The position numbers and the translations under genes were made by a program. 26,281 bases of DNA from a virus: the IMG/VR virus record IMGVR_UViG_3300046750_000237, positions 1-26,281 of that record; one strand, given 5' to 3'. Under the pieces are notes generated by a model. It searched no databases. It was not told where the DNA came from and saw only the letters and a list, made by a program, of their open reading frames with translations. Positions 2,869 through 10,204 of the stretch are shown here, one piece after another. Numbering within the stretch: position 1 is the stretch's first letter; each line of letters opens with the position of its first letter.

Positions 2869-2894
2869 TTTATTCACATAATTGTTTATATTTG
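2865..2894 (+). promoter_or_regulatory. Bacteroidetes-type sigma-A promoter (TTG-N19-TATATTTG)
   Basis: TTG at 2865-2867 and TATATTTG at 2887-2894 are separated by 19 nt, an exact match to the Bacteroidetes -33/-7 consensus (TTG, TAnnTTTG). Transcription would begin around 2900, giving a leader of about 12 nt before ATG 2913. The spacer contains TTATTCACA (2870-2878), a perfect DnaA-box consensus. This promoter would drive the exonuclease-to-methyltransferase block. Confidence 0.8.
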
Positions 2895-2912
2895 TAATTC
2901 AAAACAGAGCAA

Positions 2913-3155: not shown

Positions 3156-3865
3156 TATTATTAGTAGATGCAGATTCTTTGGTGTTTGCCAGTTGTTACA
3201 GAAAAAGAGAGAACAAAGACGATTATCCTTACTATACTGATTTGGACGATGCCATTGCAAAATTTGATGAGCAGTTTATGAAGATAGTAAATGACCTTGA
3301 AGAAAAATACAACATAGAAAAGGTGCTAACATTTAGCGGTTCAAAGGGAAACTTTAGAAAACTAATCACGCCAGTATATAAAGCCAACAGAAAAAAACAA
3401 GAACTACCTCCATTACTACACGATGTACACGCATACGTTAAAGAGCAATACAAATCTATTTGGGGAATGGGAATAGAAACAGACGACCTTGTTGCTCGTT
3501 ACTGGTATAATTTAAGTAAAGAAATTGGTAGGGATAATGTTATGATAGTATCAATAGACAAAGACTACAAACAGTTCCCTTGTTTAATGTACAACTACCA
3601 TTATAAGCATCAAACGATATTAGACATTTCAGAAGATGAAGCGATGTACAATTTCTATGAACAAATGATTGTAGGCGATACCGCTGATAATGTAAACTAC
3701 TTCAAAGGAAAAGGAAAAAGGTTTGCCGAAAAATACTTTGAGGGTTGCACAACAAAATACCAATACACCAAAAAGCTATACGAATTATTTAGACAAGAAT
3801 ACAAACAAAAGGCACGACAAAAATATACAGAGTGCTATCATTTATTAAAATTAAGGACAGAATGA
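3152..3865 (+). CDS. FEN-like 5'-3' exonuclease (T4 RNase H/Taq exo family)
   Basis: A 237-residue protein with the acidic motifs of the FEN/PIN-like 5' nuclease family in order: VDADS near the N-terminus (D6, D8), the substrate arch region with NFR...YKANRKK (about 69-83), ETDDLVA (D111, D112), SIDKDYKQ (D136, D138) and GDTADNV (D176, D179). These residues would hold two divalent metals. The GDTADN block corresponds to the helix-hairpin-helix entry of the family. The likely role is removal of RNA primers and 5' flaps during phage DNA replication. It is slightly shorter than T4 RNase H, which is normal in flavobacterial phages. It overlaps both neighbouring starts by 4 nt. Confidence 0.85.
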   Translation: MILLVDADSLVFASCYRKRENKDDYPYYTDLDDAIAKFDEQFMKIVNDLEEKYNIEKVLTFSGSKGNFRKLITPVYKANRKKQELPPLLHDVHAYVKEQYKSIWGMGIETDDLVARYWYNLSKEIGRDNVMIVSIDKDYKQFPCLMYNYHYKHQTILDISEDEAMYNFYEQMIVGDTADNVNYFKGKGKRFAEKYFEGCTTKYQYTKKLYELFRQEYKQKARQKYTECYHLLKLRTE

Positions 3866-4368
3866 ATGCAAAACTATTAAGTAGATTAAATTTAGAGGTG
3901 TGGAAAGATATACCAGATTTTGAGGGTATGTATCAAGTAAGCAATCTAGGTAATGTTAGGAGTTTAAAATCTAATAAGTTAAAGGTTTTAAAAAAAAGCA
4001 TAAATAACAATGGGAGATATAGGGTCAGTCTTTGTAAAAACGGTAAGAAATTTTCAAACTGTAAAATAAGCCAATTATCTGCAATGGCTTTTTTAAATCA
4101 TAAACCTTGCGGTCACAAAATAGTGGTAGACCATATAGACAATAATAAAGAAAATGATAAGTTGTACAATTTACAATTAATTTCAAATAGAGAAAATACC
4201 GTAAAAGATACCGTACGTGGTTCATCAAAGTACGTTGGAGTTTCGTGGCACAAAAATATAAAGAAGTGGAGGGCATACATATACATAAAAGGCAAAAATA
4301 AACATTTAGGGTACTTTACAGACGAAAAAGAAGCAGCGCAAGCATATAAAAACGAATTAAAAAAATAA
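3862..4368 (+). CDS. HNH homing endonuclease with NUMOD4 and AP2 domains
   Basis: About 168 residues in three modules. EVWKDIPDFEGMYQVSNLG (N-terminal) is a NUMOD4 DNA-binding motif. HKIVVDHIDNNKENDKLYNL is an HNH core whose DHIDNNK block supplies the metal- and phosphate-binding His and Asp. The C-terminal segment YVGVSWHKNIKKWRAYIYI...LGYF is an AP2-type DNA-binding domain. I chose ATG 3862, which overlaps the exonuclease stop as ATGA; an in-frame ATG at 3832 would add 10 residues inside the exonuclease gene. This is a free-standing homing endonuclease, probably a selfish insertion between two replication genes. Confidence 0.85.
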   Translation: MNAKLLSRLNLEVWKDIPDFEGMYQVSNLGNVRSLKSNKLKVLKKSINNNGRYRVSLCKNGKKFSNCKISQLSAMAFLNHKPCGHKIVVDHIDNNKENDKLYNLQLISNRENTVKDTVRGSSKYVGVSWHKNIKKWRAYIYIKGKNKHLGYFTDEKEAAQAYKNELKK

Positions 4369-6924: not shown

Positions 6925-6926
6925 TT

Positions 6927-6967: not shown

Positions 6968-7234
6968 ATGGATAAACGTAAGAATAACGGTGGAGCAAGA
7001 CAAGGTGCTGGACGACCTAAAAAAGCTGATGAATCTAAATTGATTGAGAAGCTAGATAACTTAATTGATAGCGATGAGGTTATACAAATGCTAGGTAAGA
7101 AAATCAAAGAGGGAGACCAACGTGCTATGACTTTGTACTTCAATTATAGATACGGTAAACCAAAAGAATCGGTTGACATAAATTCAAGCGAGGGTTTAAA
7201 TATAAACTTCAAAGATTTGATTAAGTTCAAATGA
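6968..7234 (+). CDS. terS: Terminase small subunit (candidate)
   Basis: An 88-residue protein. The N-terminus NNGGARQGAGRPKKADE is the glycine/basic 'GGARxGAGRPKK' signature found at the start of many small terminase subunits and their relatives. It is followed by helices (LIEKLDNLI...DEVIQMLGKKIKEGDQRAMTLYF) and YRYGKPKESVDI. It overlaps the large subunit start by 4 nt, the classical terS-terL arrangement. It would bind packaging-site DNA and regulate the motor. It is shorter than typical full-length TerS (130-180 residues), so it may represent only the DNA-binding and oligomerisation part. Confidence 0.72.
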   Translation: MDKRKNNGGARQGAGRPKKADESKLIEKLDNLIDSDEVIQMLGKKIKEGDQRAMTLYFNYRYGKPKESVDINSSEGLNINFKDLIKFK

Positions 7235-8439
7235 TAGAGATACACAAAAAGTATTCTCCAATTACTGAATCTGATAGTCGTTATTTTATTGTTACTGGTG
7301 GACGTGGTTCGGGGAAATCTTTTACATTAACCTTATTACTTGTTTTGCTTACATACGAAGCTGGACACGTTATATTGTTTACTCGTTATACACTTACTTC
7401 GGCTTACGTTTCTATTATACCCGAATTTATAGAGAAGTTAGAATTGCTTAATATCTTTGGCGATTTCCATATTACTAAAGATGAGATTGTAAATAAGCGT
7501 ACAGGAAGCAAGATAATATTTAAAGGTATCAAGACATCAAGCGGCGACCAAACTGCAAACCTAAAGTCCTTACAAGGCGTTACAACGTTTGTATTGGATG
7601 AAGCGGAAGAACTTACCAATGAAGATACATTTGATAAGATAGATTTGTCTGTTAGGAATATGCTCAAACAAAACAGGGTTATTCTTATACTAAACCCAAC
7701 TACAAAAGAGCATTGGATATACAATAGATTCTTTGAATCAAAGGGAATACAAGAGGGAAGCAATACAACTAAAGACAATATAACGTACATACACACGACT
7801 TATGAAGATAATAAGGAAAACCTATCTGAAAGTTTCTTACAACAAATAGAAACGATTAAAGAACGCAGACCGAATAAGTATCAACATCAAATACTAGGTG
7901 GCTGGTTAAATAAAGCAGAGGGAGTCATCTTTAGTAATTGGAAGATAGGCGAGTTTAAAGAAGTAGGCGTTTCAGTTTACGGTCAAGATTATGGATTTGC
8001 CTCAGATGAAAATACACTTGTTAAAACAAGCATAGATACTGCAAACAAAACAATATACATCAAAGAATGCTTTTATATTAAAGGGCTTACAACAAGCGAA
8101 ATATCGCAATTAAATTTAAAACACGCAGGTAGCAGTTTAATAGTAGGAGATTCAGCAGAGAAGCGATTAATACACGAATTGAAATCAAAAGGTTGTAATA
8201 TAGTAGAATCAATAAAAGGTGCGGGAAGCATAACGTATGGAATTAGCTTACTACAAGATTATGATTTAATAGTAAGCGAGGATAGTATAAACCTTATCAA
8301 AGAATTAAATAATTATAGTTGGTTAGAAAAAAAGTCAAACACTCCTGTAGATAAATTCAACCATATTATAGATGCGATTAGATACGCAATAACATACCAA
8401 CTACAAAACCCTAATAGAGGGCGTTACGCAATACGATGA
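7231..8439 (+). CDS. terL: Terminase large subunit
   Basis: A 402-residue packaging motor with both domains. ATPase: Walker A GGRGSGKS (residues 23-30) and Walker B FVLDEAEE (120-127) with the catalytic Glu, then ILILNPT as the coupling motif III. Nuclease (RNase H fold): D253 in QDYGF, D307 in VGDSAEKR and D381 in HIIDAIRYA supply the metal-binding acidic triad. The pattern fits the Terminase_3/Terminase_6C-type families of siphoviruses. The length is normal. It pumps DNA into the prohead through the portal and cuts concatemers. It overlaps terS and the following small ORF by 4 nt each. Confidence 0.95.
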   Translation: MIEIHKKYSPITESDSRYFIVTGGRGSGKSFTLTLLLVLLTYEAGHVILFTRYTLTSAYVSIIPEFIEKLELLNIFGDFHITKDEIVNKRTGSKIIFKGIKTSSGDQTANLKSLQGVTTFVLDEAEELTNEDTFDKIDLSVRNMLKQNRVILILNPTTKEHWIYNRFFESKGIQEGSNTTKDNITYIHTTYEDNKENLSESFLQQIETIKERRPNKYQHQILGGWLNKAEGVIFSNWKIGEFKEVGVSVYGQDYGFASDENTLVKTSIDTANKTIYIKECFYIKGLTTSEISQLNLKHAGSSLIVGDSAEKRLIHELKSKGCNIVESIKGAGSITYGISLLQDYDLIVSEDSINLIKELNNYSWLEKKSNTPVDKFNHIIDAIRYAITYQLQNPNRGRYAIR

Positions 8440-8588
8440 CAAATCAAGAGATGATACATTTAGTTCAGCACTACGTTAAAGTTATGAAAGGGGTTAATGT
8501 AAGAATAAGCGAACCTAATACGCCAAGCCAGTTCTTAAAACTATCAAAAGCCTACGAGGTTGCATTGGCTTATTTCAAGGCAAAATAA
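8436..8588 (+). CDS. Small protein translationally coupled to terminase
   Basis: A 50-residue ORF beginning on the TerL stop (ATGA). It reads as two helices around a turn (NVRISEPNTPSQF) and is mildly basic. A small ORF in this position is common in phages of this group, but I recognise no function. It ends the terminase operon; a perfect hairpin follows 6 nt downstream. Confidence 0.45.
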   Translation: MTNQEMIHLVQHYVKVMKGVNVRISEPNTPSQFLKLSKAYEVALAYFKAK

Positions 8589-8594
8589 GAAAAA

Positions 8595-8620
8595 CTTATA
8601 GTAGGTTTGTTTACTATAAG
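8595..8620 (+). repeat. Perfect 9-bp inverted repeat downstream of terminase operon
   Basis: CTTATAGTA (8595-8603) and TACTATAAG (8612-8620) are perfect inverted copies around an 8-nt loop. On the + strand it lacks a following T run, so it is not a canonical terminator. Read on the - strand it is followed by five T. It may be an mRNA 3'-end hairpin, a processing site or an operator. The rest of the 8589-8847 gap holds a motif copy (8660), a weak hairpin with a G6 run near 8745, and a host-type promoter (8788). Confidence 0.7.
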
Positions 8621-8659
8621 AAAATAGTATTGTATATTTTGTTTATTGTCATTATTTAT

Positions 8660-8673
8660 ACGTTATATATTTA
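8660..8673 (+). promoter_or_regulatory. ACGTTATATANNTA motif, site 2
   Basis: Exact copy of the repeated motif in the gap after the terminase genes. The nearest ATG (8677) opens only a 20-codon frame, so this copy would give a transcript with a long leader reading toward 8848 and beyond. Confidence 0.6.
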
Positions 8674-8787
8674 GAAATGCAGATATATATTAAAATCTAC
8701 ACATATATCAAAACCAAAAAAAGCATTCATAAAGTATAGAGGACTTGGGGGGATTCTACCTTTTTAAAAAAAAAGTTATTAAAAGTT

Positions 8788-8816
8788 TTGTTAATTAAAA
8801 AAAAGGTGTATTTTTG
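8788..8816 (+). promoter_or_regulatory. Bacteroidetes-type sigma-A promoter (TTG-N18-TATTTTTG)
   Basis: TTG (8788-8790), 18 nt, then TATTTTTG (8809-8816) is an exact fit to the Bacteroidetes -33/-7 consensus. The bases after the -7 box (TAATTCAAA) are identical to those after the 2887 box. ATG 8848 lies 31 nt past the box, with an A-rich leader. It would express the small gene cassette independently of the phage motif. Confidence 0.8.
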
Positions 8817-8847
8817 TAATTCAAATAACAATTTAAAACAAAACAAA

Positions 8848-9045
8848 ATGATAGATTTTTGGATTTGGAAAGACGGTACAATAAGTTATAAAAAGGGCGA
8901 TTCAATATATACAGAGAAGATAGTGGCGGAAAACGATGAGTACTATACTGTTGTAGAAATTGGAGCAGGAGAAAAACTTTGGAATGCAGGGTACGCAGTA
9001 GGTAACAGAGTTTACAGAAACCCAATAGACCTAACAACAATATAA
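8848..9045 (+). CDS. Small accessory protein with its own promoter and terminator
   Basis: A 65-residue protein, predicted mostly beta strands, beginning MIDFWIWKDGTISY and rich in Trp, Tyr and Gly. I took ATG 8848 because an upstream in-frame TTG (8788) is itself the -33 promoter element. The gene sits alone between an exact host-type promoter and a GNRA-loop terminator at 9054, inside the late gene region, so it can be expressed when the neighbouring structural genes are silent. No family recognised. Moron-like or early anti-host roles are possible. Confidence 0.6.
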   Translation: MIDFWIWKDGTISYKKGDSIYTEKIVAENDEYYTVVEIGAGEKLWNAGYAVGNRVYRNPIDLTTI

Positions 9046-9053
9046 AACAAACA

Positions 9054-9072
9054 GGGGGCGAAAGCCCCTTTT
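9054..9072 (+). terminator. GC-rich hairpin with GAAA loop and T4 tail
   Basis: GGGGC (9055-9059), GAAA loop, GCCCC (9064-9068), plus a G-T closing pair and TTTT (9069-9072). The stem is all G-C in otherwise AT-rich DNA. The T tail is short, so it may be a partial terminator letting some transcripts reach the 9085 gene. Confidence 0.75.
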
Positions 9073-9084
9073 AAAACAAGTAAT

Positions 9085-9333
9085 ATGAAAAAAATCGAAA
9101 CAATATTTATAGAATTAGAAAAATACGATGATACAATAGTGGAGGTTGATTATATATTTAGAGAGGCAGAACCAAGAGTTTATTACAATTCTGATATGTC
9201 GGGAGATGACGGACAAGATGCAGACACAAGTGTGATTTCGGTTAGAATTGATGACGTTTGTATATTGAATGTAATGAGCGATAAAGCAATAGAAAATTTA
9301 GAAGAAAGAATAACTAAAACACTAGAAAAATGA
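9085..9333 (+). CDS. Acidic hypothetical protein
   Basis: An 82-residue acidic protein with about 21 Asp/Glu against 10 Lys/Arg. A central DMSGDDGQDADTS loop is flanked by beta-rich segments (VEVDYIF, VISVRIDDVCIL) and a C-terminal helix. It begins 13 nt after the 9054 hairpin and overlaps the next ORF by 4 nt (ATGA). Small acidic phage proteins sometimes act as DNA mimics, but there is no specific evidence here. No family recognised. Confidence 0.5.
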   Translation: MKKIETIFIELEKYDDTIVEVDYIFREAEPRVYYNSDMSGDDGQDADTSVISVRIDDVCILNVMSDKAIENLEERITKTLEK

Positions 9334-9452
9334 TACGTAAATTTTTAAAGAAAGACAAAAACAATATTTACTGGTTAGCCAGTTTTTATGCAGCAGCATT
9401 TTTATTGGTACAAACATTTTTATTATTTGCAGGTTTAATAGATAGTATATAA
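9330..9452 (+). CDS. Single-pass membrane micro-protein
   Basis: A 40-residue ORF with a basic N-terminus (MIRKFLKKDK) and a hydrophobic segment at about 15-37 (LASFYAAAFLLVQTFLLFAG), so inserted in the inner membrane with the N-terminus inside. Its start overlaps the 9085 stop, and a strong terminator follows. No family recognised; it is too short to be a confident holin. Confidence 0.45.
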   Translation: MIRKFLKKDKNNIYWLASFYAAAFLLVQTFLLFAGLIDSI

Positions 9453-9484: not shown

Positions 9485-9517
9485 AAAGAGGTAGTCGTAA
9501 TTGGCTACCTTTTTTTT
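9485..9517 (+). terminator. Rho-independent terminator before the tail module
   Basis: AGGTAGTC (9489-9496) pairs with GGCTACCT (9503-9510), with one G-T pair and a 6-nt loop. The stem extends outward through A-T pairs into an eight-T run (9510-9517). It separates the accessory cassette from the motif-driven gene at 9554. Confidence 0.8.
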
Positions 9518-9540
9518 GTTTCAAAAATTGCGTTTAAAAT

Positions 9541-9554
9541 ACGTTATATAAGTA
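9541..9554 (+). promoter_or_regulatory. ACGTTATATANNTA motif, site 3 (tail module)
   Basis: Exact motif copy whose last base is the A of the ATG at 9554. It lies directly behind a terminator, so a new transcript must begin here or be read through from upstream. AAAATTG precedes it by 10 nt, as at site 6. Confidence 0.7.
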
Positions 9555-10204
9555 TGAAGATTGAAGTTATCATACCAAACGATTTAAGCGAAATTACTTT
9601 AGACCAGTATCAAAGGTTTCTAAAGATACAAGAGAACAACACAGATGAGAAGTTTTTAACCTCTAAAATGATTGAAATATTTTGCGGTATTAAGTTGCCC
9701 GAAGTATTGAAAATGAGGGTTAATGATGTGGCTTTAATTACAAACATCTTAACTGAAATGTTTGAGAATATACCTCAACTTGTACAACGCTTTAAAATGA
9801 ACGGAGTTGAATATGGTTTTATTCCAGATTTAGACGATATGAGTTTAGGGGAATACATAGACCTTGATACCTATCTAGGCGATTGGGAAAACATACACAG
9901 GGCAATGGCAGTACTATATAGACCTATTAAAAACAAAAGTGGTAACAGATACAACATAAAGGACTATGACGGTAAGGGATTCGAGGATATGAAAGATATG
10001 CCTTTAGATGCTGTTTTAAGTTCCATTGTTTTTTTTTACAATTTAGGGATAGAATTGTCGAAATCTATGATGAATTATTTGGAAACAACGGAGGAGGAAG
10101 CCTTGACCGAGTATCTCAATTCTCAACAAAATGGGGTTGGTATCAATCAATTTACGCACTCGCTAACGGAGATATTACAAGATTTGAAAATATCACTAAA
10201 CTAG
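9554..10204 (+). CDS. Tail assembly chaperone candidate, zero-frame product
   Basis: A 216-residue protein with an alpha-rich middle. It contains LSEITLDQYQRFLKIQ at the start, SLGEYIDLDTYLGDWENIHR near 97-116 and AVLYRPIKN. This resembles proteins located before the tape measure in flavobacterial phages. The gene carries a T9 slippery run at codons 159-162 (10029-10037), and an open -1 frame continues to 10290, ending exactly on the next start. That is the hallmark of the lambda G/GT-type chaperones that guide tail tube assembly around the tape measure. Identification rests on this frameshift and the position; sequence similarity to known chaperones is not obvious. Confidence 0.65.
   Translation: MKIEVIIPNDLSEITLDQYQRFLKIQENNTDEKFLTSKMIEIFCGIKLPEVLKMRVNDVALITNILTEMFENIPQLVQRFKMNGVEYGFIPDLDDMSLGEYIDLDTYLGDWENIHRAMAVLYRPIKNKSGNRYNIKDYDGKGFEDMKDMPLDAVLSSIVFFYNLGIELSKSMMNYLETTEEEALTEYLNSQQNGVGINQFTHSLTEILQDLKISLN
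10028..10038 (+). other. Slippery T9 run for -1 frameshift
   Basis: G followed by nine T and A (zero-frame codons GTT TTT TTT TAC). T TTT TTT is a canonical X XXY YYZ heptamer that allows both tRNAs to re-pair after slipping back one base. Ribosomal slippage and polymerase slippage would give the same product. No obvious stem-loop or Shine-Dalgarno stimulator was found by eye. Confidence 0.65.

Follow-up and report, generated by a model that had tools for sequence, protein, structure and literature searches.

Morons carry their own promoter and their own terminator. They are defined, in PMC7067206, as accessory loci of phages. In T4-type phages, the promoter early stem-loop elements (PeSLs) have been described (cited in PMC4503421) as composite promoter-terminator motifs that mark the ends of gene shuffling, and it has been proposed (PMC3233612) that short conserved intergenic sequences could direct homologous recombination in mosaic phage genomes. 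The locus described here, which lies in a linear IMG/VR virus record of 26,281 bases analysed over its whole length (the window), resembles each of them. Like a moron, it holds an extra late-region gene with a host-type promoter and a hairpin, which is missing in near relatives and occupies other sites elsewhere; unlike a moron, it shares its promoter and hairpin with other cargo genes, and its transcription unit probably comprises three genes before a strong terminator. As with PeSLs, conserved promoter and stem-loop elements appear as ends for the shuffling of small genes, and the same hairpin follows unrelated ORFs in the window and in its relative L007, but here the promoter precedes the cargo and the hairpin follows it, instead of both forming one combined intergenic element. 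With the boundary sequences the locus has in common short conserved stretches between genes as possible recombination targets, whereas here the ends consist of a promoter-leader of host type and a hairpin, and the phages are those of Bacteroidota. All three kinds are already known; the variant with promoter-leader and hairpin-leader ends in Bacteroidota phages is one for which we found no report, and a literature search whose coverage left out most subscription journals returned no description of the TerL/g9554 hotspot or of the 65-aa family. We consider it likely that the locus is a cassette of accessory genes that can be exchanged at a phage hotspot.

The junction between the terminase and g9554 genes

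Judged by g9554, the named phages nearest to the window are P12024S and P12024L of Nonlabens (34.5% identity over 77% of g9554). The features to which the analysis refers are the following:

2887-2903, plus strand: second host-type box and start of a leader, in the early region; other phages have the 65-aa gene here
7231-8439, plus strand: terminase large subunit (TerL) gene, with matches to PHROG terminase large subunits; left border of the hotspot
8436-8588, plus strand: 50-codon gene, present in the nearest relatives L005-L008
8589-8767: spacer carrying an inverted repeat and, at 8659-8669, a late-like motif; a block present or absent in near relatives
8787-8790 (TTTG) and 8809-8816 (TATTTTTG), plus strand: host-type promoter of consensus form, kept in L005-L008
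8817-8847, plus strand: A-rich leader with the linker TTTAAAACA at 8832-8840; left end of the exchanged segment, where matches to L005-L008 end (8847-8851)
8848-9045, plus strand: cargo gene of 65 codons plus stop; dN/dS 0.13; homologues in 24 contigs
9053-9070, plus strand: G+C-rich hairpin with a GAAA loop and a short T tract, identical in L007 after another gene
9070-9078, plus strand: right linker TTTAAAACA, ahead of the next gene
9085-9333, plus strand: second operon gene, 82 codons; homologues in L006, L007, L008 and L089
9330-9452, plus strand: distal hydrophobic gene, 40 codons (GRAVY 0.75), the common distal gene of the hotspot
9485-9514, plus strand: intrinsic terminator, strong (13-pair stem and T run), that closes the accessory operon; kept in L005-L008
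9540-9550, plus strand: late-promoter-like motif immediately before g9554
9554-10204, plus strand: g9554 (phrog_32199), right border of the hotspot

An earlier note on this DNA had placed the cassette between the terminase and tail modules. The terminase side of that placement is borne out by the PHROG matches of 7231-8439. For the tail side there is just a weak match of g9554 to a tail family (phrog_166, E 0.039), and the structural genes come after it. Judged from the contigs compared, the TerL/g9554 junction is a hotspot for exchangeable small genes. In 83 distinct contigs with both borders (86 rows before L085 and L087, both duplicates, and L001, the window's own copy, were left out), the gap measures up to 45 bp in 27, which count as empty, 45-200 bp in 2 and more than 200 bp in 54, with a maximum of 1,506 bp; these contigs are fragments that include several near-duplicates, and the counts are not independent. 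The gaps contain mostly varied small ORFs. Counting ORFs that begin with ATG and have 35 codons or more, some spurious overlaps included, there are 151, which make up 70 groups by similarity; 39 groups have a single member. At the distal end, a short hydrophobic protein like that of 9330-9452 together with a terminator is common. In P12024S (Inhavirus) the TerL gene directly adjoins the g9554 homologue, and the junction is therefore empty in this phage. Among the matches listed, none of 80 relatives carrying g9554 has the 65-aa gene (at least 80 exist, and some of the contigs end early on the left). The case that the earlier note had named as refuting its reading, a gene universal and syntenic in all relatives, thus does not apply, and homologues lie at several other sites as well.

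The spacer 8589-8767 is found in L005, L006 and L086 and is cleanly absent from L007, L008 and L089. The junction of L020 appears, judged by eye, to hold a tRNA-like gene among its cargo.

Promoter-leader, hairpin and exchange at gene ends

The promoter, the 65-codon gene at 8848-9045 and the GC-rich hairpin that the note had read from the letters are all there, and so is the agreement that it saw downstream of the 8788-8816 and 2887 boxes, as TAATTCAAA follows both of them (8817-8825 and 2895-2903). The promoter at 8787-8816 agrees with the Flavobacterium consensus TTTG/TANNTTTG, revised as TAHHTTTG, as given in PMC6847099. Taken by itself, the pattern is no more frequent in the window than chance would allow (3 matches versus 1.45 expected). 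It is the conservation of the box in all four nearest relatives (L005-L008), together with an excess of boxes before the first ORFs of filled junctions, that makes the promoter credible: a TAHHTTTG box, or the looser TAHHTTAG, stands within 70 nt before the first ORF in 38 of 52 filled junctions versus 41 of 500 control ORFs, and the strict form in 27 of 52 versus 29 of 500, figures for filled junctions that are descriptive only, the contigs being related. The first ORF lacks a recognised box in the other 14 of the 52. As the same promoter-leader precedes different genes in the nearest relatives, the promoter is, on these alignments, not private to the 65-codon gene.

The positions at which the relatives diverge are informative as to how the cargo changes. 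On the left, the match to the window ends at 8849 in L005, 8847 in L006, 8851 in L007 and 8847 in L008, at the start codon in all four. On the right, L007 rejoins the window at 9042, at the stop codon, and continues through the identical hairpin and the next leader; between these points L007 has a 97-codon ORF unrelated to that of the window. This pair is best described, from its alignment, as the exchange of one ORF, with the promoter-leader before it and the hairpin after it both conserved, and L089 is arranged like L007. In L006 and L008 the promoter stands immediately before the 82-codon-type gene. Other pairs differ by single genes: L059 and L060, which share 98.8-99.7% identity on either side, by the insertion of an 82-codon gene that has no hairpin, and L086 and L005 by one 49-codon gene plus hairpin. 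In L095 and L097 the unit from promoter to next ATG is 97.3% identical over 329 bp versus 52% for TerL and 65% for g9554, which shows that the unit was transferred as a whole. The comparisons among near relatives show, at the level of aligned genomes, that the cargo varies, that the junction can be empty and that homology breaks off at the start and stop codons, inside ends that are conserved.

The linkers are short and A+T-rich, and because TTTAAAACA occurs five times in the window versus 2.3 expected, its direct repeats may simply be common translation-start sequences. Leaders inside the gaps are alike at 15 or more of 20 positions in 8% of 59 successive pairs, modestly above the 0.5% of 1952 pairs.

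The hairpin has a GGGGC-GAAA-GCCCC core at 9055-9068, and G.T and A-T pairs extend the stem to 9053-9070; the 55 nt from the stop codon fold at -12.8 kcal/mol (z -4.0). Its T tract is TTTT only, and the same hairpin is common to the window and to the unrelated gene of L007 and L089. It looks like a weak terminator; with so few T, termination would most plausibly be partial, or else the hairpin would protect the message. Since the hairpin has only four T and is followed by two small genes and then a strong terminator, the transcription unit probably comprises three genes (65, 82 and 40 codons) and extends to 9514. No TAnnTTTG box occurs between 8809 and 10396 on the plus strand, and so there is none in the space after the hairpin. 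The cassette had been described as a single gene with a promoter and terminator of its own. The gene and both elements are present as described, but two more genes and the terminator at 9485-9514 follow, the promoter and hairpin are common to other genes, and the T tract is short.

The 65-aa protein and its family

That the 65-codon gene is real is shown by purifying selection, the median dN/dS being 0.13 for the 190 pairs that 20 distinct homologues form. The protein is acidic (pI 4.7). The window copy has no match in PHROGs, Pfam, PADLOC or NCBIfam, and 19 homologues scanned one by one gave weak scattered matches (best E 0.0036 in PHROG, 0.0073 in NCBIfam and 0.034 in PADLOC). A PDB sequence search returned a single match at E 1.3; tblastn found no acceptable match in 50,697 phage records (three matches at E of 4 or more in one search, none in another) nor in 72,556 plasmids. 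The structure prediction that had been proposed for this protein was carried out with 19 sequences and gave a model with pLDDT 76.9 and pTM 0.57; a model from four sequences (pLDDT 53.6) was set aside. Compared with the PDB, the 19-sequence model reaches Z scores of at most 3.7, and many of the top rows are myosin N-terminal domains, integrase C-terminal domains, Tudor and SH3 domains, which we take to be SH3-like barrels, while a BFVD search with the model returned nothing at E of 0.001 or below. The weak similarity is a hint that the protein may be an SH3-like barrel, and such a model together with the host-type promoter suggests a host-directed accessory role. There is perhaps an even chance, as a guess from its distribution, that it is a small host-directed factor which serves in takeover, in counter-defence or in superinfection exclusion and brings a benefit on certain hosts only.

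Homologues were found by scans in 24 further phage contigs and were placed by their flanking genes at several sites. Ten further copies occupy the TerL/g9554 junction (L092, L095, L096, L097, L101 with the left flank only, L104, L105, L106, L107 and L109). Six lie between w1826-like and w3152-like genes (L102, L108, L110, L111 and L112 with both flanks, L098 with the right flank only); in the window, the 2887 promoter lies in this interval. Three are at other early positions (L002, L003, L004), two upstream of TerL (L113, L114) and one in a different phage type (L100), and the sites of the remaining two (L099, L103) are not assigned by flanks. Near-duplicates among these contigs are L095/L096, L104/L106/L107, L113/L114 and L003/L004. 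A hairpin follows 22 of the 25 gene copies, 8-15 nt past the stop codon, with the stem kept and the sequences different, and is lacking in L100, L113 and L114; a comparable stem (score of at least 13) follows 8% of 302 control stops. The 65-aa profile is positive in nine of 20 phage records, with one copy each.

A host origin through Maribacter (L090) was considered and rejected, for the matching protein is longer and of another kind, similar over a short stretch by chance, and the profile is negative in that genome; a sample of 299 genomes from the Maribacter sp. PR1 family contained no copy of the gene. The L109 cassette has blastn matches in cultured Flavobacterium and Elizabethkingia phages, around the promoter, the leader and the gene start; in the two phages examined, the gene standing there is unrelated. 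A gene at 3832-4368 encodes a NUMOD4/HNH/AP2-type endonuclease, likely a homing endonuclease, and its homologues are near the 65-aa gene in L098, L102 and L108.

Transcription, exchange and the alternatives

The late-promoter-like motif TACGTTATATA occurs on the plus strand at 6926, 8659, 9540, 16444, 17702 and 19934, and with up to one mismatch on both strands gives 8 matches versus 1.2 expected. It precedes g9554 and several structural genes, mostly three nucleotides from the start codon, and at 9540, 16444, 17702 and 19934 the spacing is exactly 3 nt, hinting at near-leaderless late messages. A regular-expression form of the motif is found within 21 nt before g9554 in 50 of 57 filled and in 21 of 30 empty-or-unknown junctions, duplicates included. 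The 161-aa protein of 545-1030 resembles Sigma70_r2 weakly, with an E value of 0.0069 that falls short of the curated cut-off, and is 27% identical to P12024S_33, annotated as Sigma-70 region 2; it is possibly a late sigma factor that reads TACGTTATATA.

The operon at the junction would run from the host-type promoter and the A-rich leader through one or more variable cargo genes, often a G+C-rich hairpin, and distal small genes to a strong terminator. Host RNA polymerase would transcribe it independently of the late promoter type of the phage, as a promoter of host consensus should need no phage factor. Given a host-type promoter here versus the late motif at g9554 and the structural genes, the accessory operon would be active as soon as infection begins, though it lies among late genes; given the late-like motif copy at 8659 upstream, the cassette may also be transcribed late. 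Transcription would read through the weak hairpin and stop at 9485-9514, the hairpin probably reducing expression of the downstream genes or shielding the first message. The exchange itself would be homologous recombination between the short conserved ends in mixed infections.

Other mechanisms have to be weighed against such recombination. Short ORFs might turn over by illegitimate recombination, a published alternative (PMC3233612) in which insertions land anywhere and survive only between genes, so that apparent ends are merely gene borders. It too predicts breaks at gene borders, and the linkers are indeed short and A+T-rich, but it fits poorly with an identical hairpin and a near-identical promoter-leader around unrelated ORFs in the window and L007, or with a break at the same point in all four relatives, and we regard it as unlikely. 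A site-specific system resembling an integron, in which hairpins or linkers are recombination sites and a recombinase of phage or host always inserts behind the promoter, would account for the variable cargo next to the promoter, the constant distal end and the hairpin that most copies of the 65-aa gene have behind them. The hairpin sequences, however, vary among phages, L060 and L059 differ by a gene without a hairpin, and no tyrosine recombinase match was found in 15 records, which are fragments and whose hosts could supply the enzyme; this mechanism appears very improbable.

The earlier note called the cassette moron-like, a reading that is in large part right though incomplete: the gene is accessory, patchy in its presence and placed among the late genes behind a promoter of host type. 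A true moron of a temperate phage would go further: the prophage would express the 65-aa gene from its own promoter and terminator and alter the lysogen, for example by superinfection exclusion. The host-type promoter, the hairpin after the gene, the late-region position and the patchy presence are all in keeping with it, as is the sharing of the whole promoter-gene-hairpin unit by L095 and L097. Near relatives, on the other hand, use the same promoter for other genes, the gene is absent from the 299 genomes of the Maribacter sp. PR1 family, and a tyrosine integrase was found in none of 15 records (fragments, the window included; serine integrases lay outside the search). The strict sense of the term needs a lysogen, and as no tyrosine integrase was found, temperance is unproven; we hold a true moron to be unlikely.

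Returning to the exchangeable cassette, it may be suggested, tentatively and with more doubt than confidence, that Bacteroidota phages possess a fixed platform of host-type promoter-leader and hairpin-leader, present in at least two places of the genome, on which small host-range or counter-defence genes, drawn from a common pool that includes the 65-aa family, are swapped exactly from start to stop codon, in an integron-like manner without a dedicated integrase. The locus gives marine flavobacterial phages a fixed address, from TerL to g9554 and behind a host-type promoter, at which small accessory proteins can be collected. In other phages, such addresses are productive sources of host-takeover and counter-defence genes. 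The clear insertion pairs and the exact ORF exchange also make boundary recombination testable outside T4 or lambda.
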